IMG/VR virus record: IMGVR_UViG_3300030116_000745
Location: 1-24,497 of that record
Length of the DNA stretch: 24,497 nt
Source: a virus
Reading direction: 5' to 3' (one strand)
Below, in pieces: positions 5,641 through 17,503 of this stretch. Both the position numbers and the translations under genes were made by a program. The notes below the pieces were generated by a model. That model saw nothing but the letters and a program-made list of their open reading frames with translations. It searched no databases and had not been told where the DNA came from. Position 1 is the first letter of the stretch. The number at the start of each line of letters is the position of its first letter.

Positions 5641-6105
5641 ATGGCCGCAGGCGGTTGGTTTGATTGGACTACTGGAGATCTTGTAACAGAATCAAGATTT
5701 CAAGATATTCAAGATTCAATAGTATTTATTTTTGCCTCAGAAAGTGCAGCGAATACTGCTTTGACAAATAAAGTAGAAGGCACGGTGTTTTATGATACTG
5801 GAGCTAATTTACTGAAAGCATGGTCAGGATCAGCGTGGATAGGTGCAGAAGCAGGAGATATTGAGGGAATTACAACAAGTTCTACATCAGGTTTAGAGGG
5901 TGGAGCAACATCAGGTACTCCTAGCTTGAGTGTAAAACCTAACTCTGCAACTTCAGGTACAGTTGCGGCTGGAGATGAAATTCTTTTTGGAGATATAAAC
6001 GATAGCAATAATCTTAAAAAAACAACTGCTCAAGATATTGCTAATCTGGCGGACGCAGGTTTTGAATTAAATAAAGCAAAAAGTTTTTTTGCGTTGAACG
6101 GTTAA
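5641..6105 (+). CDS. Tail fibre / tail-tip protein
   Basis: This 154-residue protein begins with an aromatic N-terminus ('GGWFDWTTGDLVTESRFQDIQDSIVFIFAS') that looks like a virion attachment segment. A small strand-turn unit follows ('EGTVFYDTGANLLKAWSGSAWIGA'), of the kind common in tail fibres that display text-like repeats of 'YDT....L..W.G..W'. The C-terminal half is Gly/Ser/Thr-rich. The SD AAAGGAG precedes the ATG. Function as a fibre or fibre anchor is inferred from composition and position. It is short for a whole fibre, so host recognition may be shared among the small proteins that follow. Confidence 0.65.
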   Translation: MAAGGWFDWTTGDLVTESRFQDIQDSIVFIFASESAANTALTNKVEGTVFYDTGANLLKAWSGSAWIGAEAGDIEGITTSSTSGLEGGATSGTPSLSVKPNSATSGTVAAGDEILFGDINDSNNLKKTTAQDIANLADAGFELNKAKSFFALNG

Positions 6106-6115
6106 GGAGAAATAA

Positions 6116-6433
6116 ATGGCGAGTGGAATATTAGGACAAATAGTAGGCACAGGATCAGAAGCAGATGTTTACACAGTTCCATCTAATACTCTTTCTGTTG
6201 TTAATGTATCAATAATAAATAATGATGCATCAAATAACGAAACAGTAGTTCTTAGGTTGGTAAACTCTGGAGATACCTCTGCCGCGAAACATAATCTTGA
6301 AAATATGTCTGTAGTTTCCAATGGAGTTGTAGAAAGAACAGCTATTGTAATGAGTTCTGGAGATAAAATTACAATGAATGCAAGTTCTGATGTATCAATT
6401 TCAGTTTACGGCATAGAAGAAAGCACAAGCTAA
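6116..6433 (+). CDS. Small beta-rich tail-tip protein
   Basis: This 105-residue protein is almost entirely predicted beta strand and turn. It opens with 'MASGILGQIVGTGSEADVYTVPSNTLSVVNVSIINNDA' and has a hydrophilic 'NNETVVLRLVNSG' strand pair. The layout resembles small jelly-roll-like units found beside phage fibre genes. The SD AAGGAG precedes the ATG and its stop overlaps the next ATG by one base. Position in the tail-tip string suggests a virion surface role, perhaps receptor contact or decoration, but no motif proves this. Confidence 0.6.
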   Translation: MASGILGQIVGTGSEADVYTVPSNTLSVVNVSIINNDASNNETVVLRLVNSGDTSAAKHNLENMSVVSNGVVERTAIVMSSGDKITMNASSDVSISVYGIEESTS

Positions 6434-6732
6434 TGGCTCGTAAGAAAAGTTGGAGAAGTGGCGAAATAAAGTCGATACAAACTTTTACCTATCAAGACAG
6501 TACAAACGCAAATGCAGATTTTCAGATCGGTATAAATGCAGTTGATTTATCACACAGTTTTGTTGGTCATACTTCTGCGTATGATACAGGAAGTTCTGAT
6601 CCTTTGAGAGATACAAGACAAGTATATTTAAACAGTTCAACTCAACTTGTTGGACAAGCAAGAAACTCATCAGGTGGAAGTTCATCTTTATTCGCAGCAG
6701 GAGCAGGACAGGTTGTTGAGTATTATGCCTAG
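6433..6732 (+). CDS. Small tail-tip protein, 'IKSIQ' family (paralogue A)
   Basis: This 99-residue protein shares its plan with the next gene. A conserved 'SGEIKSIQTFTYQDST' segment is followed by beta strands, a central 'SHSFVGHTS' strand and a 'VYLNSSTQLVGQARNSSGG...VVEYYA' end. The 'G.(I/V)KSIQ' start is a recurrent feature of short proteins encoded beside phage tail fibres. The start shares one base with the previous stop and the stop overlaps the next gene by 8 bases. A role in the tail tip is inferred from position and composition only. Confidence 0.6.
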   Translation: MARKKSWRSGEIKSIQTFTYQDSTNANADFQIGINAVDLSHSFVGHTSAYDTGSSDPLRDTRQVYLNSSTQLVGQARNSSGGSSSLFAAGAGQVVEYYA

Positions 6733-7003
6733 ATATAGTTTAGAAAATCAAGCAGGAGCAGTTAAATCAATTCAACAAGAAACTTTAGGATCTACTTTAA
6801 GCGGAAGTTCTGATACAAAATCCATTAACTCAGTTAATACTGATTATGCCTTTGTTGTCAGTTCAGGTGGTAGTGAGCAGGCACCAGGCGTAAATATTCA
6901 AGATTCAACAACTTTATTTCTCAGGTGGCGACATAGTGCAACACATTATTACAGGACAACAACTACAGTATTAGAGTTTTTTGGTGGTAGAGGATATGAG
7001 TAA
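6725..7003 (+). CDS. Small tail-tip protein, 'IKSIQ' family (paralogue B)
   Basis: This 92-residue protein is best started at ATG 6725 (MPRYSLENQAGAVKSIQQET), because that places the 'AGAVKSIQ' motif in register with 'SGEIKSIQ' of the previous gene. The longer in-frame start at 6647 would lie inside the coding region of that gene. Shared features with paralogue A are the 'VKSIQ' opening, a central strand ending in 'AFVV', and a terminal 'V.EF' strand. It likely assembles with its neighbours at the tail tip. Its stop overlaps the next ATG by 8 bases. Confidence 0.6.
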   Translation: MPRYSLENQAGAVKSIQQETLGSTLSGSSDTKSINSVNTDYAFVVSSGGSEQAPGVNIQDSTTLFLRWRHSATHYYRTTTTVLEFFGGRGYE

Positions 7004-7238
7004 TCATTCAGCACAAATAAATGAAGCAAATGTTGTTGTTTGTATCTTACATGATTCTTTAGGTAGAATCCCAGATAGTAATATACCGTTTGAAGTAGAA
7101 AATCCAGAACTTGTATTAGGTTGTAAATATGATCCTGATGCAGAAATTAATGATATAAAAACAATGGACAGCTTTACTCCACCTAGTGAAAATAAGTATT
7201 TCGATAATGAAGGCGTTGAACGAGATTTTCCAACATAA
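6996..7238 (+). CDS. Small acidic protein at the end of the tail operon, unknown
   Basis: This 80-residue protein starts at ATG 6996 behind 'GTAGAGG'; an in-frame TTG at 6981 would add five residues. The protein is acidic and includes 'LHDSLGRIPDSNIPFEVENPELVLGCKYDPDAE'. It ends in 'YFDNEGVERDFPT'. I do not recognise a family. It is the last gene before a short gap with a strong SD, so it probably belongs to the tail-tip string. Confidence 0.55.
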   Translation: MSNHSAQINEANVVVCILHDSLGRIPDSNIPFEVENPELVLGCKYDPDAEINDIKTMDSFTPPSENKYFDNEGVERDFPT

Positions 7239-7261
7239 CCTACATTAAAAGGAGGTTATCA

Positions 7262-7516
7262 ATCATTAACTTAGAAAGCTACTCTAAAGAACAGGGTAAA
7301 AAACAAACAGGACAATATGCGTCTAAAAGGTTTATTTTAGATGATCCTGAAGCTAGAAAAATATTTCTTAATGTGGCGAAAACTGCTGAAGAAAAATATA
7401 TTTCAGATACAGTCGCAGCACAATATTTAGTGGATACCTTTATACAATTTAATCATTTGCATTACAACACAGTTAGAAGATACTTTAGGGATTTTCGTAA
7501 TGGTCGAATCAAATAG
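7262..7516 (+). CDS. Small HTH-like protein with non-AUG start
   Basis: An open frame of 84 codons follows a perfect AAAAGGAGG (7247..7255) but has no ATG, GTG or TTG near it. In-frame candidates are ATC at 7262 (6 bases after GGAGG, matching the spacing seen at other genes here) and ATT at 7265. The protein has a helix-rich C-terminus ('DTVAAQYLVDTFIQFNHLHYNTVRRYFRDF') resembling a DNA-binding helix-turn-helix. The frame overlaps the metallophosphoesterase start by 17 bases. Without this reading the SD would be orphaned and 261 bases would be non-coding, unlike the rest of the genome. The DNA-binding role is inferred. Confidence 0.6.
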   Translation: MINLESYSKEQGKKQTGQYASKRFILDDPEARKIFLNVAKTAEEKYISDTVAAQYLVDTFIQFNHLHYNTVRRYFRDFRNGRIK

Positions 7517-8717
7517 TTTAGAAGAATTTAATAAGACTATAAAAGACAGATCTCCACAGATTACTAAAAAGAAAACTACTCATCCTAAAGGATTTGAGCC
7601 ATCGGTTTCTTATAAAAGTTCAACAAGATCTGGAGAAATAGTAAGCTCTCCACAAAAAAAGAATAAAGTAAATTGGAAAGAACAATTAGAATCATACTTT
7701 GGAAAAGATGCTCATAAATATAAAGTTCTGGAAGATACAGCAGAAATACGCTTCTGGGATTCAAATATAGGAAATGGCTCAATAGAAAGACTTTATTATT
7801 TTAAAGCTAAAATTGTATCTTCAGAAAAATACTTACCTGATGAAGATATAAAGAAACTTATAAAATTAGCAAGTCAAAAGAAACCAGTACAAAAACCAAA
7901 AGTCAATAAAGGATCACTTACTTTTACAATATGCCTTGCAGACTTTCAAATAGGCAAAGAGGGAACTGAAGAATCAATAGAAAGATTTATTTCATATATT
8001 CCAAAGATTAAAACACAGATAAAAAAATTACAAAAAACTGAAAACTTAAGGCAGGTTTTGTTTGCGGGATTAGGCGATTTAGTTGAATCATGTTCTAATC
8101 ATTACTCTATGCAAGAGTTTTCAACAATGATTGATGAAAGATCACAACAGAAAGTAGCTAGGAGAATGATCTACACATTAATTAAAGAAATTATGCCTTT
8201 ATTTGATAAAGGTTTGGTAGCTTTTATTGGAGGCAATCATGGCGAAAACCGTAAGAACGGCAAAGCATATACGACTTTTGGAGATAATAAAGATGTTATG
8301 TTAGCTGAAGAATTACAAGAAATATTTAAAGAAGCTCCAGCTTATAAAGACAGGTTGTTGTTTATGATTCCAGAAAATGAATTATCTATGACTTTTGAAA
8401 TATCTGATACAACAATCTGCATTCTTCACGGCCACCAAATGAGAGGAGCTGGTAATTCACAAGCTAAAGCTAGGAAATGGGTATCCGATCAGTCATTTTC
8501 TCGCAACTCAATAGCTGATGCTGATATAGTTCTTCATGGCCATTACCATTTTTTTTCTGCTTATGAGTCATCAGATAGATTAATTATACAAGCTCCAACT
8601 CTTGATTCAGGTAGTGAGTGGTTTGAAAACACAAAGGGAGATAAGTCTAAAGCAGGATTATTGACTTTTGTAATTGGAGGAGAACAGAAATGGGATTATA
8701 TTAAGGTTATAAGGTAA
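7500..8717 (+). CDS. Calcineurin-like metallophosphoesterase
   Basis: This 405-residue protein has the ordered metal-binding motifs of calcineurin-like phosphoesterases: D-x-Q at 148-150 (in LADFQIGK), GDLVE at 191-195, GGNHGE at 243-248, HGHQ at 309-312 and HGHYH at 345-349. The first metal site has Gln where many family members have His, as in several phage homologues. The N-terminal 130 residues are Lys/Ser-rich and may bind nucleic acid. Family members hydrolyse phosphodiesters or phosphomonoesters with two metal ions. The substrate here is unknown. It lies after the tail genes and overlaps the HTH-like gene upstream. Confidence 0.88.
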   Translation: MVESNSLEEFNKTIKDRSPQITKKKTTHPKGFEPSVSYKSSTRSGEIVSSPQKKNKVNWKEQLESYFGKDAHKYKVLEDTAEIRFWDSNIGNGSIERLYYFKAKIVSSEKYLPDEDIKKLIKLASQKKPVQKPKVNKGSLTFTICLADFQIGKEGTEESIERFISYIPKIKTQIKKLQKTENLRQVLFAGLGDLVESCSNHYSMQEFSTMIDERSQQKVARRMIYTLIKEIMPLFDKGLVAFIGGNHGENRKNGKAYTTFGDNKDVMLAEELQEIFKEAPAYKDRLLFMIPENELSMTFEISDTTICILHGHQMRGAGNSQAKARKWVSDQSFSRNSIADADIVLHGHYHFFSAYESSDRLIIQAPTLDSGSEWFENTKGDKSKAGLLTFVIGGEQKWDYIKVIR

Positions 8718-8720
8718 ATA

Positions 8721-9320
8721 ATGAAACTAGAAGTATTAAGATTTAATAGTCAAGATGATTTCACTAATGGACTCTTATTTGATGTAACTGATAACGTAAG
8801 ATCTTTCTTAGCATATACTCTTGAAGATGAAGCACGAACAACTAAAGTATGGGGCGAAACCAGAATACCTGCAGGCAAATATAAACTTACTTTAAAAGGT
8901 CATGGCGGTTTCCATAACCGGTATTTAGCTAAATATGGTGCAGAATTTCATAAAGGTATGCTCTTAGTTAATAATATTAAAAATTTTACAGATGTGCTAA
9001 TCCACTGCGGCAACAGCGATGATGACACGGCGGGATGCCTTTTGGTCGGAAAAACTTCACAAGATAACTTTATAGGGAGTTCTGTTGCGGCCTACAAGTC
9101 CATATATCCACCTATAAGAGATGCAATTTTATCTGGGGAGGAAGTCTGGATAGAGTATATTGATTTTGATGGCAAGATGAATAACGATCTTAATAAAGAA
9201 AATGTTTCAAATAATGAGGAGGATATAATGAGTATCTTATCGAATGAAATAAAAAATCTAAAAAAAGAAGTTAAATCTCTTAGACAAACAATAATCCTAA
9301 AAGGGATGCAAGCGAACTAA
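8721..9320 (+). CDS. DUF5675-like protein with C-terminal coiled coil
   Basis: This 199-residue protein carries a DUF5675-type domain (residues ~1-150): 'TLEDEARTTKVWGETRIPAG.Y', 'GMLLVNNIKNFTDVLIHCGNS', 'DDTAGCLLVG'. The IH (94-95) and GC (105-106) arrangement recalls the His...Gly-Cys active-site order of L,D-transpeptidase (YkuD) folds, although homology is not claimed. The last 30 residues form a short charged coiled coil preceded by a strong internal SD. It lies two genes upstream of the holin, so a cell-wall or lysis role is plausible. The family has no settled function. Confidence 0.7.
   Translation: MKLEVLRFNSQDDFTNGLLFDVTDNVRSFLAYTLEDEARTTKVWGETRIPAGKYKLTLKGHGGFHNRYLAKYGAEFHKGMLLVNNIKNFTDVLIHCGNSDDDTAGCLLVGKTSQDNFIGSSVAAYKSIYPPIRDAILSGEEVWIEYIDFDGKMNNDLNKENVSNNEEDIMSILSNEIKNLKKEVKSLRQTIILKGMQAN
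9228..9320 (+). CDS. Possible internal in-frame product, 30-aa coiled coil
   Basis: Inside the 3' end of the DUF5675-like gene, a near-perfect SD (GAGGAGG, 9216..9222) stands five bases before an in-frame ATG at 9228. It would give a separate 30-residue peptide (MSILSNEIKNLKKEVKSLRQ and ten more residues), a short amphipathic helix. This could be a second product that oligomerises with the full-length protein, or a trace of a gene fusion. The SD is as good as those of real genes here, but a purine-rich stretch can also arise by chance. Confidence 0.4.
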   Translation: MSILSNEIKNLKKEVKSLRQTIILKGMQAN

Positions 9321-9330
9321 ATCGTTTCTA

Positions 9331-9453
9331 ATGAATTTAAAATGTAGTTCCTGTGGAACTAAACTAGAACTTATAGATAAAGTTTTTGTTTGTATAACAA
9401 AAAAATGTAATCAATTTAAAAAGATACAAACAAGATTAAAAGAAGAGGAGTGA
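9331..9453 (+). CDS. Mini zinc-ribbon protein, 40 aa
   Basis: This very short gene lies between the DUF5675-like gene and the holin. It has four cysteines in two pairs: C5-x2-C8 (KCSSCG) and C21-x4-C26. That fits a small treble-clef or zinc-ribbon knuckle. A basic helix follows (FKKIQTRLKEEE). Its stop TGA (9451..9453) is one base before the holin ATG and its coding end supplies the holin SD (AGAAGAGGAG). The SD of this gene itself is weak. The role is unknown; several other short Cys-pair proteins lie in this genome. Confidence 0.6.
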   Translation: MNLKCSSCGTKLELIDKVFVCITKKCNQFKKIQTRLKEEE

Positions 9454-9454
9454 T

Positions 9455-9643
9455 ATGTCTGAAGATCTTAAAGACATGTTAGAGAGATCCTTTTGGACTT
9501 TCTGCGAGGCATTTATCGGTGCATTAACTATTAGCCCACTTGTTGGCGTTGATGCGTCTGCTTTACAACTTGCGGCAATTTCTGGAGGATCCGCTGCATT
9601 GTCAGTTATCAAAACGTATGCAAAAAAACAGATAACAAAATAA
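9455..9643 (+). CDS. Holin, r1t-like
   Basis: This 62-residue protein has two hydrophobic segments (about residues 14-31 and 36-55) separated by a short loop containing 'GVDASALQL'. A charged N-terminus (MSEDLKDMLERSFW) and a basic tail (KTYAKKQITK) flank them. The pattern 'R.FW....AFIGAL....GVD...LQLAAISGGSAALSVIK' matches the r1t-type holin family found in phages of Gram-positive bacteria. Such proteins form membrane holes that end infection and release endolysin. It is the last gene before the strong terminator at 9679. Confidence 0.82.
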   Translation: MSEDLKDMLERSFWTFCEAFIGALTISPLVGVDASALQLAAISGGSAALSVIKTYAKKQITK

Positions 9644-9678
9644 TCTGTATGGACTAGCAATAGCTCATACACATAAAA

Positions 9679-9710
9679 AAAAGAGGAGGATAACAATATC
9701 CTCCTCTTTT
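9679..9710. terminator. Strong bidirectional Rho-independent terminator
   Basis: A perfect 14-bp stem (left arm 9679..9692, right arm 9697..9710) has a 4-base loop. The left arm begins AAAAGAGGAGGAT. The + strand reading ends in TTTT followed by G. On the - strand the hairpin is followed by eight Ts (complement of A 9675..9682). It would stop late transcription after the holin and any leftward transcript from the minus-strand gene. Confidence 0.88.
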
Positions 9711-9717
9711 GTTAAGC

Positions 9718-9788
9718 AAGAGAGGGAGGTTGAATTAGGGTACAACATATACTCAAAGGGGAGATATGTTATTAGGACTCTCTCTCTT
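9718..9788 (+). other. Predicted stem-loop RNA structure around a micro-gene start
   Basis: Two nested helices can form. An outer 11-bp helix pairs 9718..9728 with 9778..9788 (one G-U). An inner helix pairs 9744..9750 with 9764..9770 and continues as CTC (9752..9754) with GAG (9761..9763). The apical loop contains the purine-rich AAAGGG that would serve as SD for the ATG at 9766, and that ATG lies in the inner stem. If transcribed, this could control translation of the micropeptide. I did not find a clear promoter immediately upstream. Confidence 0.3.
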
Positions 9789-9861
9789 TATGTACTATTT
9801 ATACCATATATTGATGACAATATTTTTTTTAAAGATCAATAAAAAAAGTTGTAGTTTGTAA
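9766..9861 (+). CDS. Possible membrane micropeptide, 31 aa
   Basis: An ATG at 9766 follows the purine-rich AAAGGGGAG (9755..9763). The 31 codons encode a single hydrophobic helix (LLGLSLFMYYLYHILMTIFF) followed by a basic tail (LKINKKSCSL). The form suits an antiholin, holin-like or membrane-targeting peptide, and it lies just after the holin and its terminator. Against it: AT-rich DNA often gives hydrophobic frames by chance. The end also overlaps the terminator of the minus-strand gene. Confidence 0.3.
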   Translation: MLLGLSLFMYYLYHILMTIFFLKINKKSCSL

Positions 9862-9903
9862 ATACAGAACTTTTTCATGTATGGTATTTACACAACTACA
9901 ACT
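9847..9903 (-). terminator. Terminator of the minus-strand gene
   Basis: A long imperfect hairpin is formed by 9847..9865 (starts AGTTGTAGTT) and 9884..9903, with 19 paired bases, one bulge and an 18-base loop. Read on the - strand it begins just past the stop of the minus-strand gene (9905) and is followed by seven Ts (complement of A 9841..9847). This is the classic Rho-independent layout for leftward transcription. On the + strand there is no T run after it. Confidence 0.75.
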
Positions 9904-9904
9904 C

Positions 9905-10060
9905 TTAATTACTACTATAAGTAGTCATAAAACAATAATCAGAATTATTTTCTAATAATTTTTTGTCTTGACTACTAATACAGTTTTTACAAAAAATAGA
10001 TTCGTAAATATTATAAATCCATTCATCTTCTGTAAAACTATAATTACAGTTTTCACACAT
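9905..10060 (-). CDS. Small zinc-ribbon protein, the only minus-strand gene
   Basis: This 51-residue protein starts at ATG (10060 on the - strand) behind AAGGAGGTTGATT. An upstream in-frame start would extend it over the promoter and is less likely. It has two pairs, C2-x2-C5 (MCENC) and C24-x2-C27 (CKNC), flanking 'FTEDEWIYNIYESIF', which is a rubredoxin-like or zinc-ribbon knuckle. Its own promoter and terminator can be seen. As the sole leftward gene, between the late and early blocks, it may be a regulator expressed from the start of infection, but that is inference. Confidence 0.75.
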   Translation of the reverse strand: MCENCNYSFTEDEWIYNIYESIFCKNCISSQDKKLLENNSDYCFMTTYSSN

Positions 10061-10078
10061 AATCAACCTCCTTAAAAT

Positions 10079-10087
10079 AGTATAACA
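10079..10087 (-). promoter_or_regulatory. Extended -10 promoter for the minus-strand gene
   Basis: On the - strand the sequence reads TGTTATACT, an extended -10 element (TGn plus TATACT, one base from TATAAT). Transcription would begin near 10072, right at the SD of the minus-strand gene, giving a leader of only about 12 bases. A TTGTCA lies upstream but at 21 bases, too far for an ideal -35, so the extended -10 would carry recognition. Confidence 0.55.
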
Positions 10088-10104
10088 GATTTTTTTTATT
10101 TCGT

Positions 10105-10132
10105 ATGACAAAATTTATTTTTATAGTAATAT
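10105..10132 (+). promoter_or_regulatory. Probable rightward promoter of the early region
   Basis: ATGACA (10105..10110) and TAATAT (10127..10132) are spaced 16 bases apart and could be -35 and -10 boxes. The start point would be near 10139, just at the AGGAGG (10140..10145) of the gene at 10152. The match to consensus is only partial, but the location opposite the leftward promoter and ahead of a long run of co-directional genes is right. Confidence 0.4.
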
Positions 10133-10151
10133 ATTTATAGGAGGTTGATTA

Positions 10152-10472
10152 ATGAATAATACATTACAAAAAGATTCTATAAAAATAGGATCTTTTGTAG
10201 AGTTCAAAGCTAATAACACAACTCTTAGAGGTGTTGTTACTAATGGTATATCTGATCAAGTAGTTGAAGTAGAAGTAACTTCAAAACTTATCAAGAAAGA
10301 AAACTTTTATAAATTATATGAGAGTATTCCGGTATATCACGTAAAAAAAGAGATTCTCACAGTTGTAAAATGTGATTGTGATAGAGTCATTCACGAAACA
10401 ATACTATCAGACAGAGGACATTATTTTGAGTCCGCTTTTTGTCCAGATTGTTATTGGGATTGTGTAAGTTAA
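10152..10472 (+). CDS. Early protein with C-terminal Cys pairs, unknown
   Basis: This 106-residue protein is the first gene of the rightward early block. The N-terminal ~60 residues look like a small beta barrel ('IKIGSFVEFKANNTTLRGVVTNGISDQVVEVEVTSK'), reminiscent of SH3/KOW-type modules. The C-terminus holds CDCDR (C75, C77) and CPDCYWDC, a likely zinc site. The SD AGGAGGTTGATT precedes the ATG. No family is recognised. Position suggests expression early in infection. The stop shares a base with the next ATG (TAATG). Confidence 0.7.
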   Translation: MNNTLQKDSIKIGSFVEFKANNTTLRGVVTNGISDQVVEVEVTSKLIKKENFYKLYESIPVYHVKKEILTVVKCDCDRVIHETILSDRGHYFESAFCPDCYWDCVS

Positions 10473-12285: not shown

Positions 12286-12310
12286 TAACAATGTTATAAC
12301 AAGTAACATT
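12286..12310. repeat. Overlapping palindromes and TAACA repeats, candidate origin part 1
   Basis: A 10-bp perfect palindrome TGTTATAACA (12292..12301) lies within a stretch where TAACA occurs three times (12286, 12297, 12304). AATGTTA (12290..12296) is an inverted repeat of TAACATT (12304..12310). The stretch directly follows the replication-initiation-like gene. It may be a binding site for that protein or a melting region. Confidence 0.45.
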
Positions 12311-12318
12311 ACAGAGGC

Positions 12319-12348
12319 AGAGTAGAGTAGAGTAAAATAGAGTAGAAT
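12319..12348. repeat. Six tandem pentamers (AGAGT type), candidate iterons
   Basis: From 12319 there are three copies of AGAGT, then AAAAT, AGAGT and AGAAT, with no gaps. The array lies between the replication-like gene and the next SD (AAAGGAGG at 12353). Phased short repeats next to an initiator gene are typical of iteron-type origins. At 5 bp per unit a two-unit step is about one DNA turn, so alternate copies would face the same side. A simple slippage repeat is the alternative. Confidence 0.45.
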
Positions 12349-12365
12349 ATATAAAGGAGGTTGAA

Positions 12366-12623
12366 ATGGGTATGAGAACATTAATAAAAATGTCAGATAG
12401 ACAAAAAATTCGCATACTTTTTGAAATGGATCAGGAAATTTGTTCTCTAGATCCAGAATTTAATAAAGGATCTGTAAGGAAATATGCACATCAATTCAGT
12501 AAATTATATGGATGGATTATTTATAGAGAAAATTGTAATTGTGATAATAAAGCAAAGGGTACTCTTAATATGGATGGTACTCCTAGAAAACATAATAAAT
12601 ATATAAAGGATTGGGCAATATGA
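12366..12623 (+). CDS. Early protein, 85 aa, unknown
   Basis: The ATG at 12366 is five bases after AAAGGAGG (12353..12360). The protein is charged and helical ('MSDRQKIRILFEMDQEICSLDPE', 'VRKYAHQFSKLYGWIIYRE'), with 'NCNCDN' near position 60. The C-terminus (GTPRKHNKYIKDWAI) overlaps the methyltransferase start (ATGA). A second ATG at 12390 would remove eight residues. I do not recognise the family. Coupling to the methyltransferase gene suggests co-expression. Confidence 0.6.
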   Translation: MGMRTLIKMSDRQKIRILFEMDQEICSLDPEFNKGSVRKYAHQFSKLYGWIIYRENCNCDNKAKGTLNMDGTPRKHNKYIKDWAI

Positions 12624-13153
12624 TACCTTTTCCAAATAAAAAATATAATATAATTTATGCGGATCCTGCTTGGAGTTATAATCTAGGAAATGTTCAGGGT
12701 ACAACAGAAAATCATTATGAAACAATGTCTTTAGAGGATATTAAAAATTTACCTGTAAAAGATATAACAACAGAAAATGCAGCGTTATTTTTATGGGTTA
12801 CTTTTCCTAAATTAAATGATGGTGTTTTAGATGTTTTTGAGTCTTGGGGTTTTCAATATAAAACAATAGCTTTTAATTGGGTTAAATTAAACAAACAAAA
12901 TAATAAGCCCTTTTTTGGCATAGGTTATTATACAAGATCAAATGCAGAAATTTGTTTGCTTGGTATTAAAGGAAAGATGCCTGTTGTTGATAAAACTGTG
13001 AGTAGTGTTGTAATGACTAACAGGGAAAAACACTCAAAAAAGCCAGATATTATTAGGGATAAAATTGTGCAATTATATGGAGATATTCCTAGAATAGAGC
13101 TATTTGCCAGAGAAACTGCTGATGGTTGGGATTCTTGGGGTAATGAATTATGA
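12620..13153 (+). CDS. MT-A70-type adenine N6 DNA methyltransferase
   Basis: This 177-residue protein has the MT-A70 layout: 'KYNIIYADPAWSYNLG' (catalytic DPPW-like motif as DPAW, residues 15-18), 'AALFLWVTFPKLNDGVLDVFESWGFQYKTIAFNWVK', 'GIGYYTRSNAEICLLGIKG' (SAM-site type motif) and 'KKPDIIRDKIVQLYGDIPRIELFARE'. The family transfers methyl from SAM to adenine N6. Ala for the second Pro in DPPW is a known kind of variation. The start ATG 12620 overlaps the previous stop; an in-frame TTG at 12611 lacks a good SD. It may protect phage DNA from restriction or mark it for packaging. Confidence 0.88.
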   Translation: MIPFPNKKYNIIYADPAWSYNLGNVQGTTENHYETMSLEDIKNLPVKDITTENAALFLWVTFPKLNDGVLDVFESWGFQYKTIAFNWVKLNKQNNKPFFGIGYYTRSNAEICLLGIKGKMPVVDKTVSSVVMTNREKHSKKPDIIRDKIVQLYGDIPRIELFARETADGWDSWGNEL

Positions 13154-13210
13154 GTAAATTAAGTAAGCCATTACAAAAAACTAATTTAGGTTGGTTTGTC
13201 AGGTTGTAAT

Positions 13211-13441
13211 ATGTTTATAAAAAAAGATAACAGCGCGTTAGCTAAAAGATTAATACAATATTTGTTTAAAAAGCCAAGCAATGTTTTGTTTTATGTAAAA
13301 AATCTTATTTTTAATAATTACAATACTCCAAAAGAAATTAGATTATTTCAATGTTTTATGTGTAAAGAAAATTTTGTTTTTCCTTTGACAAGTAAAGATT
13401 ATATATTGTGTAATAAATGTTGGAGATCTTTAAATGATTAG
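13211..13441 (+). CDS. Zinc-ribbon protein, 76 aa
   Basis: The protein has a basic, helical N-terminal half ('KKDNSALAKRLIQYLFKKPSN') and a C-terminal zinc ribbon with C48-x2-C51 (QCFMC) and C67-x2-C70 (CNKC), separated by 15 residues. The start is not certain: ATG 13211 has a weak SD, and an upstream TTG at 13196 would add five residues. The stop overlaps the next gene (ATG 13434) by 8 bases. DNA or RNA binding is plausible from the basic half and ribbon, but no target is known. Confidence 0.65.
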   Translation: MFIKKDNSALAKRLIQYLFKKPSNVLFYVKNLIFNNYNTPKEIRLFQCFMCKENFVFPLTSKDYILCNKCWRSLND

Positions 13442-13859
13442 TCTTTTGTTGTCTTGTTCTTTGTTAGTAAGTATTGAGCCAACAACATCAAATATTTACA
13501 AAATACGGAATACATCTTATCAATGTGAGATAGCAAAAGAAGTGCAGGAGTGGATTCCTTTAATAAACAAATACTTTCGGTCAGAGGAATCCTCTCTTGC
13601 TATAACAGTTTTATATTGTGAATCTTCTGGAAGATCTAAAGTTACCGGTAAAAATAATGATGGGTCCTTTGATAAGGGTTTATTTCAAATAAATTCAAAT
13701 ACGGAAAAATGGTTAGAAGAAAAAATATATAAAAAAGAATTAGATATGTATGATCCGGAAACAAATGTCAAAGTATCTTCATGGATTGTGAGAAATATAG
13801 GAAATTGGTCTTGGTGGAATAGTAGTAAGAAATGTTGGGATAAATATGACTCCTACTAG
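13434..13859 (+). CDS. Lysozyme-like transglycosylase (endolysin or virion hydrolase)
   Basis: This 141-residue protein has a short hydrophobic N-terminus (MISLLLSCSLLVSI), perhaps a signal or signal-arrest peptide. A goose/SLT-like catalytic stretch follows: 'LAITVLYCESSGRSKVTGKN' with likely catalytic Glu63 and then 'GSFDKGLFQINS'. The C-terminus ends 'NWSWWNSSKKCWDKY'. Cys31, Cys62 and Cys134 could form a disulfide if it is exported. The family cleaves peptidoglycan glycan strands. It is the best endolysin candidate, although it lies in the early block, far from the holin at 9455. Confidence 0.78.
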   Translation: MISLLLSCSLLVSIEPTTSNIYKIRNTSYQCEIAKEVQEWIPLINKYFRSEESSLAITVLYCESSGRSKVTGKNNDGSFDKGLFQINSNTEKWLEEKIYKKELDMYDPETNVKVSSWIVRNIGNWSWWNSSKKCWDKYDSY

Positions 13860-14022
13860 ATTTTTATGTAATCAATGTGATCTATGGAAAAAAAGAGGAA
13901 CTATATTTAGAGGTTTTATTTTTCTTTGTTCTGATTGTGATGTTACTTATTGGAAAGAGAAAAAAAATTGGTCTAGTGATGGAAGGGTATATTATGCAAA
14001 TATCAGTACAAAAAGTTCCTAA
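13846..14022 (+). CDS. Zinc-ribbon protein, 58 aa, nested between two genes
   Basis: This frame overlaps the end of the transglycosylase gene by 14 bases and the start of the Mom-like gene by 29 bases. It encodes 'RFLCNQCDLWKKRGTIF' and 'IFLCSDCDVTYWKEK', a pair of CxxC knuckles 17 residues apart with a basic tail. The strong Cys-pair pattern shows that this is a real gene, and that the downstream gene should start at 13994 and not in the hydrophobic frame that begins at 13877. Confidence 0.68.
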   Translation: MTPTRFLCNQCDLWKKRGTIFRGFIFLCSDCDVTYWKEKKNWSSDGRVYYANISTKSS

Positions 14023-14701
14023 GTCTGTTTATGCTGATTGGCTTTTAAACAAACATTACGCAAAAAGATTATGCTCTGTTTCGTATGCTTATGGTTTATA
14101 TATGAATCAAGAAATTAAAGGAGTAGTAACTTATGGAATGAGTCCGAATAATATGTTAGGAACAGCAATAGCTGGGGAAAAGTTTAAGCATTTAGTTTAT
14201 GAGTTAAATAGATTGATAACTGTAGATAATCTTCCTAAAAATACATTAAGCAAGTTTGTAACTGAATCTTTTAAATTATTACCAAAACCTTTAATAATTG
14301 TTAGCTATGCAGATGCAAACAAAGATCATCACGGATACATTTATCAAGCTCTAAACTTTCTTTATACTGGTAGATCTGTAAATACTTACGGATACATATA
14401 TCCTGATGGTAGTAGTTTTCATACTAGAAATTTTCATCATCATCAAAAAAGCAGCCAATTTAAAAAAGAAATAGGTAAAGATAATGTAACAAAAGAAGAT
14501 GTAATAAAAAAATATGGACTTAAAAAGGTTGAAATATTAGGAAAGTATCGTTATGTAAAAATTTTAGGATCGAAAACAGATAAAAAAGTTATTATGAGAA
14601 ACTTTAAGCTAGATGTTTTAAAATATCCAAAAGGAGAAAATAAAAATTATAAAGTTGAGTTTACCGATATGGATACTCAATTAAATTTATTTGGAGGTTG
14701 A
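13994..14701 (+). CDS. Mom-like DNA adenine modification protein (GNAT-fold type)
   Basis: This 235-residue protein is best started at ATG 13994, behind GGAAGGG. Features of the Mom-like family are a 'NKHYAKR' motif (HY at 21-22), 'YGLYMNQEIKGVVTYGMSP', 'VYELNRLI' (68-75), 'LPKNTLSKFV' (80-89) and 'SYADANKDHHGYIYQALN' (104-121) followed by 'FLYTG'. Phage Mu Mom converts adenine N6 to a carbamoylmethyl derivative and blocks restriction enzymes; related proteins have a GNAT-like fold. The His/Tyr/Asp residues present suit such chemistry. The C-terminal ~90 residues are Lys-rich. The exact product made here cannot be read from the sequence. Confidence 0.7.
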   Translation: MQISVQKVPKSVYADWLLNKHYAKRLCSVSYAYGLYMNQEIKGVVTYGMSPNNMLGTAIAGEKFKHLVYELNRLITVDNLPKNTLSKFVTESFKLLPKPLIIVSYADANKDHHGYIYQALNFLYTGRSVNTYGYIYPDGSSFHTRNFHHHQKSSQFKKEIGKDNVTKEDVIKKYGLKKVEILGKYRYVKILGSKTDKKVIMRNFKLDVLKYPKGENKNYKVEFTDMDTQLNLFGG

Positions 14702-14704
14702 TAA

Positions 14705-14932
14705 ATGAGTGATAAGCAAACAATATTTAATATATTGAAAAGAAATGAGAATACTTATGTCTGTTCTGGAATATTTATATTTGAAAATAGAATCAAAGAT
14801 TATGCTCAAAGAATTTCAGAACTTAGAGCAAACGGACATAAAATAGATGGTATTGCTTGTACTGAACACAATCATAAATTGTTTATGTATAAGTTAAATG
14901 TTAGTTATGAACAAGAAAGTATTTTTGGATGA
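14705..14932 (+). CDS. Winged-helix HTH protein, 75 aa
   Basis: The protein has the pattern 'KQTIFNILKRNENTYVCSGIFIFENRIKDYAQRISELRANGHKIDGIACTEHNHKLFMYKL'. A leading helix is followed by a helix-turn-helix ending in 'RISELR..GH.I' and a beta wing. Phage HTH-domain proteins of this size often have exactly this form and may regulate genes or bind DNA during replication. The SD TTGGAGGTTGAT is strong. The stop overlaps the next ATG (ATGA). Confidence 0.7.
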   Translation: MSDKQTIFNILKRNENTYVCSGIFIFENRIKDYAQRISELRANGHKIDGIACTEHNHKLFMYKLNVSYEQESIFG

Positions 14933-15336
14933 GTTTATTTTCAGAATCAATAAATATTGGCTATAAAACTGTAATGCTTTTTATTGCTAATGAACATACT
15001 TTATTAGATAAAGTACAGAAACCGTATGAAGTGTATCCTGATTCAGAATTAGAAGAACAGGGAGGAGCAGGTTTTCACGCAATAATTAAAAACTCCTTAA
15101 CAGCAGTCTGTATAACTATGAACAAAGATGGATCTTTCAATATTAAAACTGTTACTCACAAAGGACTTGTAGAATTTCAAAAAGAAACTGCTGAAACATT
15201 AATAAATTATTTGCATCTAATTTATGTCAATATGGTTGATGATGAAGAGAAAATACTAAGCAGGGGAATAGATCAGTATAAATACAGGAAAGCTGCGAAA
15301 ACAATGCACTACAGAGAACGCTTCGATGGCGATTAA
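14929..15336 (+). CDS. Early protein, 135 aa, unknown
   Basis: This soluble protein has mixed composition: beta strands ('KTVMLFIANEHTLLDKVQKP', 'HAIIKNSLTAVCITMN') and a C-terminal helix ending in a basic segment ('YKYRKAAKTMHYRERFDGD'). No motif was recognised. It starts inside the HTH gene stop and overlaps the next gene by 11 bases, so it is likely co-translated with both. Confidence 0.6.
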   Translation: MSLFSESINIGYKTVMLFIANEHTLLDKVQKPYEVYPDSELEEQGGAGFHAIIKNSLTAVCITMNKDGSFNIKTVTHKGLVEFQKETAETLINYLHLIYVNMVDDEEKILSRGIDQYKYRKAAKTMHYRERFDGD

Positions 15337-15789: not shown

Positions 15790-16290
15790 ATGGACTTTAT
15801 AGATGATATGTCTATAGCACTTCCTTATCAACAACAGGTAGGCGAATCAAATATAGACTTTAAAAGATTTAAGTATTATCTGGATTTAGGAGCTTCAAGA
15901 TCTTTAAAAAAAGTTTCTAATAACTTCGGCATTACAGACAGAAGAATCCAGCAGATATCTAGTAAGCATCAATGGGTAGATAGAATCAATGCTATTAATA
16001 AAATGCTTAATGAACAAATAATATCTATTGTTCTAGCTTCTGTTGGAGAAACCGTTAGAGATTTAGCAGAGGAAATAAAACCTTTGATATTTAAAATCAT
16101 TAACGAAATAAACGAAAGAGATCTTGCTTCTATGAATCCTACAGAACTTAAAGGAATTTTAGATATTTGTTACAAGATGGTTTCACAAATATACGGACTA
16201 GGTAATCCTCAAGTGAATGTAACACAAGTAGAGTATCCACAAATAAGGTTTAAATGGGATTGGGAGCAGGATGATGAGTCAGACTATTGA
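15790..16290 (+). CDS. Terminase small subunit
   Basis: This 166-residue protein lies directly before the large terminase, with an overlap of 20 bases. Its N-terminal half has a helix-turn-helix: 'LGASRSLKKVSNNFGITDRRIQQISSKHQWVDRINAIN', typical of small terminases that recognise the packaging site. A helical oligomerisation region follows (~70-140). A C-terminal tail with 'YPQIRFKWDWEQDDESDY' probably contacts the large subunit. Translation may begin from a leaderless mRNA (see the -10 box at 15778). Confidence 0.85.
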   Translation: MDFIDDMSIALPYQQQVGESNIDFKRFKYYLDLGASRSLKKVSNNFGITDRRIQQISSKHQWVDRINAINKMLNEQIISIVLASVGETVRDLAEEIKPLIFKIINEINERDLASMNPTELKGILDICYKMVSQIYGLGNPQVNVTQVEYPQIRFKWDWEQDDESDY

Positions 16291-17503
16291 TGCTACTCCT
16301 CCTGATCTTCATTCTGGACAATTAGCAGTAATACAAGCTCTTAATGAAAACAGACATATTATTGCTGTTTGTGGTAGAAGATGGGGTAAAAGCACTTTAT
16401 CACTTGTCGCTGCTATAGATCAAGCTCTAAAAGGTTTAAAGGTATGGGTGATCTTTCCAGTATATCCACAGAGCTTAGAAGCATGGTTAAATTTAAAGAG
16501 TCTAGTAAGACAGTTACCAGAAGAATACGCAGAAGTTAGGGAAGTAGAGAAAAGAATAGTTTTAAAGAATACTGGCTCTATACAGATTAAATCAGCTAAT
16601 AAACCAGAATCATTAAGAGGTGCAGGTGGTATAAGTCTTGTTATATTTGATGAAGTAGCTTACATGGACAAAGAAACATGGGATACAGTCAGGCCTATAC
16701 TTGCAGACAACAAAGGTAAAAGTCTTATGATATCAACTCCAAATGGAATTAATTGGTTTTATGAGTTATTTGAAAATGCTAAACGCAGAGAGGATTGGGT
16801 TGTATTTCACTATCCTACTGAGCAATCTCCTAGAATAGATCGTGCAGAATTAGACATAGCTAGAGAAGAACTAGGATCACTTGTATATGCTCAAGAGTTT
16901 CTAGCAGAGTTTACTGAGGTAGGAAACATGTTTAAAAGAGAATGGTTTAAATACTTTGATGTAATAAAACAAGATGATCCTGAATATATTGTTGGAGATG
17001 AAGTAATCAAGCATAGTGAGTTAAGTATCTTTGGAACAATGGATACTGCTTTGAGTATAAAAGAAACTGCTGATTACTCAGTAATAGTTACAGTAGGATC
17101 TTCTCCTAGTGGTAAGCTACTTGTATTGGATGTATTTAGAGCAAGACTAGAAGCTCCTGAATTACTCCCAAAAATAGAATCAATGATTCATAAATGGAAT
17201 ATGTCTTGGTTGGGAGTTGAGGATTCTAGTTTTGGTTTAGGTATTATTCAAATGGCTAGAAGATCTGGACTACCAATCAGAAATCTAAAAGCTGATAAAA
17301 GTAAAACAGCTAGAGCAGTTCCAGCGGCAGCGGGAATAGAAAATGGTAGTATATGGTTTTTGAAAAATGCTAAATGGCTTGTAGAATTTGAGAGAGAATT
17401 GACTAGCTTTCCATCTGCCGGCTCTCATGATGATCAGGTGGATGCACTTAGCTACGCAGCTAGATTTGGAATAGTTAGGAAAACGAATTGGAGTGTTACC
17501 TAG
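16271..17503 (+). CDS. Terminase large subunit (ATPase and nuclease)
   Basis: This 410-residue protein has the ATPase Walker A motif GRRWGKST (35-42), Walker B VIFDE (124-128, Asp127 and Glu128), and the coupling-type motif 'SLMISTPNG' (151-159). The nuclease acidic residues are D258 (TMDTALS), D318 (GVEDSSFG) and D387/D388/D391 (SHDDQVDALSYA). It pumps DNA into the prohead and cuts concatemers. It starts with two adjacent ATGs (16271 and 16274); the first is taken. The stop TAG is directly followed by the portal ATG at 17504. The length is slightly short but complete. Confidence 0.95.
   Translation: MMSQTIDATPPDLHSGQLAVIQALNENRHIIAVCGRRWGKSTLSLVAAIDQALKGLKVWVIFPVYPQSLEAWLNLKSLVRQLPEEYAEVREVEKRIVLKNTGSIQIKSANKPESLRGAGGISLVIFDEVAYMDKETWDTVRPILADNKGKSLMISTPNGINWFYELFENAKRREDWVVFHYPTEQSPRIDRAELDIAREELGSLVYAQEFLAEFTEVGNMFKREWFKYFDVIKQDDPEYIVGDEVIKHSELSIFGTMDTALSIKETADYSVIVTVGSSPSGKLLVLDVFRARLEAPELLPKIESMIHKWNMSWLGVEDSSFGLGIIQMARRSGLPIRNLKADKSKTARAVPAAAGIENGSIWFLKNAKWLVEFERELTSFPSAGSHDDQVDALSYAARFGIVRKTNWSVT

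Follow-up and report, generated by a model that had tools for sequence, protein, structure and literature searches.

A Mom-family gene with a Com-like leader and a separate MT-A70 methyltransferase gene at exchangeable sites in a 24-kb phage of an uncultured marine lineage

The mom gene of bacteriophage Mu is methylation-controlled and is switched on by host Dam methylation. Across its start is encoded Com, a 62-aa CCCC zinc-finger protein that activates mom translation (PMC6483171), and in jumbo phages Mom domains have been described as fused to endonuclease domains (PMC7824862). Phage methyltransferases of the MT-A70 family (phrog_359), such as that of Pasteurella phage Pm86, which is 54% identical to the one described here, resemble it in family and size, but unlike in the present genome no Mom is seen alongside them. 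The locus reported here has the Mom family, predicted fold and active-site residues in common with Mu, together with a small out-of-frame ORF, of the four-cysteine zinc-finger type, across the start of mom; it lies, however, in a phage of a different type, with a second, separate adenine methyltransferase in its genome. As in the jumbo phages, Mom-type modification is tied to DNA conflict genes, whereas Mom stands alone here, and in sister phages its site is taken instead by a nuclease-fold gene.

The stretch analysed (positions 1 to 24,497 of IMG/VR record IMGVR_UViG_3300030116_000745; 24,497 nucleotides, hereafter the window) comes from a marine phage and constitutes a nearly complete, circularly permuted genome of 24 kb, since homologues of its last ORF (24025-) directly precede homologues of its first ORF (217-) in four relatives. 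A preliminary description, made from the sequence, had spoken of a 24-kb phage, and the adjacency of the two ends bears this out. The phage belongs to an uncultured lineage: among the matches listed, its large terminase is less than 30% identical to the terminases of isolated phages, and a terminase search of bacterial genomes recovered no relative and no host. About 80 relatives were collected through terminase and Mom searches; these are metagenomic contigs whose loci are not independent, and some are fragments, so that a gene scored as absent may lie off the contig.

Gene order is conserved across the approximately 80 relatives with the exception of three variable sites, designated A, B and C (Table 1). 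The gene bordering site A on the left is 44-95% identical in relatives and constant in position, and the gene bordering site B on the right is 45-85% identical; site B is empty in three loci (L084, L131 and L132), where the latter gene directly follows the lysozyme gene. Occupants of the swap sites confirmed with Pfam are MT-A70, Dam (PF05869), an N6/N4 methylase (PF01555), a C5 methylase (PF00145) and Mom, and the nuclease-fold gene is a further occupant in relatives. Site C holds MT-A70, PF01555, a C5 methyltransferase or a PAPS-reductase-like gene, the last of these at L088:106-987 (phrog_424, 8e-45) and in L108 (ORF at 2015). A Pfam profile check found no PF01555, PF05869 or PF00145 gene in the window. 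Besides the two enzymes, which lie at the positions and on the strand already described, the interval contains a 3′ remnant of a Dam gene, an ORF with CxxC motifs, an SLT gene and a zinc-ribbon ORF. The CxxC ORF is 57% identical to its counterparts in L006 and L008, and a Pfam search with it gave nothing above cut-off.

Table 1. Coordinates of features in and around the variable sites of the window, and examples of gene X in relatives.
Feature	Position	Strand	Description
Conserved 85-aa gene	12366..12623	+	Left border of site A; ATGA overlap with MT-A70 start
Swap site A	between 12623 and 13434		Occupied by MT-A70 in the window
Predicted MT-A70 adenine methyltransferase, 177 aa	12620..13153	+	PF05063; catalytic motif DPAW
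Remnant of 3′ end of Dam gene	13171..13209	+	PF05869; reads LQKTNLGWFVRL-stop; just behind MT-A70 stop
Small ORF	13196..13441	+	Two CxxC motifs; listed start TTG, ATG at 13211
Lysozyme-like transglycosylase (SLT)	13434..13859	+	PF01464 2e-10, PF18896 1e-9; separates sites A and B
Swap site B	between 13859 and 14705		Occupied by Com-like ORF and mom in the window
Com-like four-cysteine zinc-ribbon ORF, 58 aa	13846..14022	+	29-nt out-of-frame overlap with mom start
Predicted Mom-family DNA-modification enzyme, 235 aa	13994..14701	+	PF25680
Conserved 75-aa gene	14705..14932	+	Right border of site B
Swap site C	16271..16290	+	Junction of small (15790-16290) and large (16271-17503) terminase genes; empty in the window
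Gene X examples	L142:3920-4522; L101:5021-5590; L137:2227-2802		Site B of sister clade

Mom and the methyltransferases occur independently of each other. Four near-complete contigs of 24-31 kb (L134, L148, L150 and L151) carry the Com-like ORF and mom without MT-A70, Dam, PF01555 or PF00145, and 18 of the 68 loci that lack this Mom have MT-A70, from which we conclude that the two are independent layers rather than a coupled pair. In a coupled system, methylation by the MT-A70 enzyme would switch on mom, or would prepare or partition sites for Mom; the methylation control of Mu mom offers a precedent, and an adenine methyltransferase accompanies Mom in several site combinations (7 of the 16 com-mom loci). 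These combinations are MT-A70 in A with mom in B (the window), mom in B with MT-A70 in C (L006-L008), Dam in A with mom in B (L002/L003), and a divergent Mom in A with MT-A70 in B (L137). Thus both the partner and the site vary, methyltransferases are about equally frequent in loci without this Mom (27 of 68), and among 13 isolated phages with mom none has MT-A70, while Dam and PF01555 are found in one each. Together with the mom-bearing contigs that have none of the four methyltransferase families, this makes coupling improbable. The preliminary description had offered either different target sites or competition between marks as layers of anti-restriction; independent layers fit the distribution better than competition or partnership, given Mom without methyltransferases, MT-A70 without Mom, and the replacement of Dam described below.

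At site A, MT-A70 has displaced an earlier Dam gene, and a scar of that gene persists behind the MT-A70 stop codon. The Dam gene in the same site of L002/L003 (PF05869, 2e-17 in L002) terminates in LQKANLGWFVKL-stop, and the window DNA at 13169-13199 is identical to its 3′ end at 30 of 31 bases. The remnant peptide has a BLOSUM score of 57; neither 20 codon-shuffled windows nor ten relatives that lack Dam gave more than 29.

The assignment of the replacing gene to MT-A70 in the preliminary description is upheld by its matches to PF05063 (1.8e-30; 106.6 bits, above the curated cut-off of 23.9), to phrog_359 (7.6e-76) and, in the PDB, to an MTA1-type MT-A70 protein (9e-18). Relatives with 55-63% identity occupy sites B or C in other phages. 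By sequence it plausibly methylates the N6 position of adenine in phage DNA. Alternatively, it might be a regulatory or RNA methyltransferase, or be inactive, and so give the phage DNA no protection: the MT-A70 family includes RNA enzymes (METTL3), and the textbook catalytic motif, DPPW, reads DPAW in the window and in most relatives (DPPW in L006/L135). We think this unlikely, as the protein is conserved, with invariance among relatives at three motif positions (D, P and W) and throughout the HSKKPD and LPRIELFAR blocks, as its phage homologues are labelled DNA methyltransferases (an annotation), and as the site that it fills is also used by DNA methyltransferases.

The product of the gene in site B is, by sequence and by predicted fold, a true Mom-family protein, as had been proposed. 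It matches PF25680 at 4.5e-33 (115 bits, above the curated cut-off of 27.1) and the Mom-like family phrog_1384 at 1.2e-48, and its sole PDB sequence match is Mu Mom (8bv8, 1.2e-11), a crystal structure titled as the inactive mutant S124A. The ATG at 13994 is kept in all close relatives and is taken as the start in place of the longer GTG start of the ORF list (13877). Sequence comparison thus identifies both modification genes and finds Mom active-site residues retained: by alignment H21, Y22, R73, S86, D107, Y117, Q118 and N121 are shared with Mu Mom, with S86 falling on Mu S124, a position conserved in 99% of 80-odd Mom homologues. The top fold match of an AlphaFold model built from 36 homologues (pLDDT 84.6) is again Mu Mom 8bv8 (E 4.3e-11, with a TM-score of only 0.59-0.67). 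That the protein might instead be a common GNAT enzyme acetylating a small molecule or a protein is very improbable, for although it has a GNAT-type core and generic acetyltransferases match the model at about 1e-4, Mu Mom is best in both sequence and fold with far better E-values, and residues specific to Mu, including Ser124, are retained. The protein does not model as a plain acetyltransferase, an outcome that the preliminary description had named as counting against its proposal. The Mom-family protein may make an N6-carbamoylmethyl-type adenine in DNA, and the earlier suggestion that both enzymes act on adenine N6 is likewise plausible through homology.

Several variants of Mom were seen in other phages. 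L059 (G026, IMGVR_UViG_3300031566_000549) has six tandem Mom-family genes at 6065-10152 of an 18-kb contig, one of which contains stop codons, and G027 (L062) has two tandem copies. An inserted domain separates the core from the RY motif in L012:3419-4312, L042:2430-3704, L045, L046, L048, L064, L066-L069 and L071; the insert is either about 80 aa long and HTH-like by eye, or about 200 aa long, in which case it weakly matches YunG (PF24585, 2e-4). The divergent Mom in site A of L137 (243-1010) is 30% identical to that of the window and matches PF25680 at 3.5e-53; this phage is CG-free and has no Com-like ORF.

Counts of short sites were also compiled. GATC occurs 126 times in the window compared with 75 in dinucleotide shuffles, yet is 1.13-fold under a second-order Markov expectation; on the same second-order basis the value is 1.24 for com-mom relatives and 0.84 for relatives without com-mom. 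The Mom target motif SASNY is seen 924 times in the window (996 expected), a difference that is uninformative. Observed/expected ratios for 4-mer palindromes are 0.96 with mom and 0.90 without, but are confounded by clade and by the loss of CG described below, and palindrome avoidance was therefore left unused as a read-out of Mom action.

The zinc-ribbon ORF over the mom start has the pattern CxxC-x16-CxxC, with C8, C11, C28 and C31 invariant, and is co-inherited with Mom: it is present in 16 of 16 site-B loci with this Mom and in none of the 68 others, some loci being near-copies. Its pN/pS is 0.34 in its own frame and 0.9-1.2 in the other frames; purifying selection thus acts on its own frame. 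The anatomy is that of Mu. A Pfam profile search, however, gave no match to Com (PF10122), and a single hhalign comparison with Com gave a probability of 2.4% (E 0.019); homology to Com is rejected at this sensitivity. An RNA hairpin at the mom start, as in Mu, is likewise unsupported (shuffle z-scores -0.5 to 1.3, covariation term 0.03), an Rfam search there found no family, and no inverted repeats were found within 12300-15000. We therefore call the ORF Com-like by position only, and by analogy with Mu it probably controls mom. Among 27 non-redundant Mom groups, 4 have a small double-CxxC ORF at the start of mom, compared with none of 144 control genes, by a criterion set post hoc and with two of the four groups being the window and its own lineage.

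Leaders of this kind are not confined to mom. In the Mu-like phages Chuche (L160:986-1928) and B3 (L161:1001-1950), a Mu-type Com ORF lies over the start of a Dam-type DNA methyltransferase gene that replaces mom; such leaders are thus not tied to Mom, and Com may be a general leader of modification genes. As in the window lineage, mom and methyltransferase genes exchange, but in B3 and Chuche the methyltransferase sits in place of mom, whereas in the window both are present at different sites. Another cysteine-rich small ORF (MKCPQC...) ends just before mom in five unrelated mom phages (L056, L061, L072, L073 and L074).

We consider it likely that the region belongs to a kit of exchangeable anti-restriction genes, with two independent adenine marks. 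The Mom-family enzyme, whose expression is probably late and probably under the control of the zinc-ribbon ORF, would add a bulky group to phage adenines; the separate MT-A70 enzyme, successor to Dam in site A, would methylate adenines; and the two marks, acting independently, would block a wider range of host restriction enzymes. Modification genes would be gained, lost and exchanged at the three fixed sites of the lineage. We infer in this the activity, chemical products and target sites of the enzymes, their anti-restriction role, the control of mom by the zinc-ribbon ORF, and restriction pressure on the lineage. Counted against the kit are the DPAW of MT-A70 and a zinc-ribbon ORF without detectable Com homology or conserved RNA structure.

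In a sister clade, site B is filled not by com-mom but by a gene of about 200 aa, here called gene X, which has no Pfam match. The CG dinucleotide is nearly absent from these phages: for 56 loci (490 kb) base composition predicts 12,690, and 99 are seen; 33 loci contain none at all (6,461 expected), and the 75 loci carrying gene X, some of which are overlapping cuts of one contig, have 24 CG compared with 19,258 expected. L102, L106, L142, L099 and L146 are examples of near-CG-free genomes with gene X, in addition to about 70 further loci. Among site-B loci, observed/expected CG never exceeds 0.009 where gene X is present and never falls below 0.016 where it is missing. The terminase tree has one CG-free clade, inside which the L084/L086/L092 sublineage, without gene X, has 2-5% of the expected CG; L084/L086 have regained this CG, a single event. 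L010 and L011, in which com-mom and gene X occur together, are CG-free, and the purge of CG thus tracks gene X and not the absence of Mom. A search of the open-access literature found no report of CG-free phages.

Codon usage alone was rejected as the cause of CG absence, since the terminase genes checked also have no NCG codons and no CG spanning two codons, and deamination alone is unlikely given the exact zero in many contigs and the little rise in TpG/CpA. Gene X is predicted to have a PD-(D/E)XK nuclease fold: its model (pLDDT 77) matches Hjc resolvases (1e-4), the SPARDA nuclease (7e-4) and NhoI (6e-3) in Foldseek, and invariant E15, D48 and E61-x-Q63 lie on the expected strands, with ExQ instead of ExK. 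The main alternative to a role for this protein is that a CG-restriction system imposed by the host drives the loss of CG. We suggest only tentatively that gene X is a phage nuclease aimed at CG-containing DNA, whether of the host genome or of rival phages, to which the phage itself is immune by sequence erasure. On this reading, the locus would accommodate either of two solutions, modification by Mom or removal of CG.

The list of two modification genes thereby becomes a testable account of the way in which anti-restriction defences are put together in a small phage, with fixed swap sites, replacement that leaves a scar, a com-like leader inherited with mom outside the Mu-like phages, and Mom alone in sister phages. 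The CG-free clade with gene X is perhaps more important than the modification genes and merits a study of its own. Should gene X prove to be CG-directed, self and non-self would be told apart in a new way; otherwise the loss of CG points to a host defence of great strength directed at CG. Whichever cause holds, this lineage offers a natural experiment in restriction pressure.
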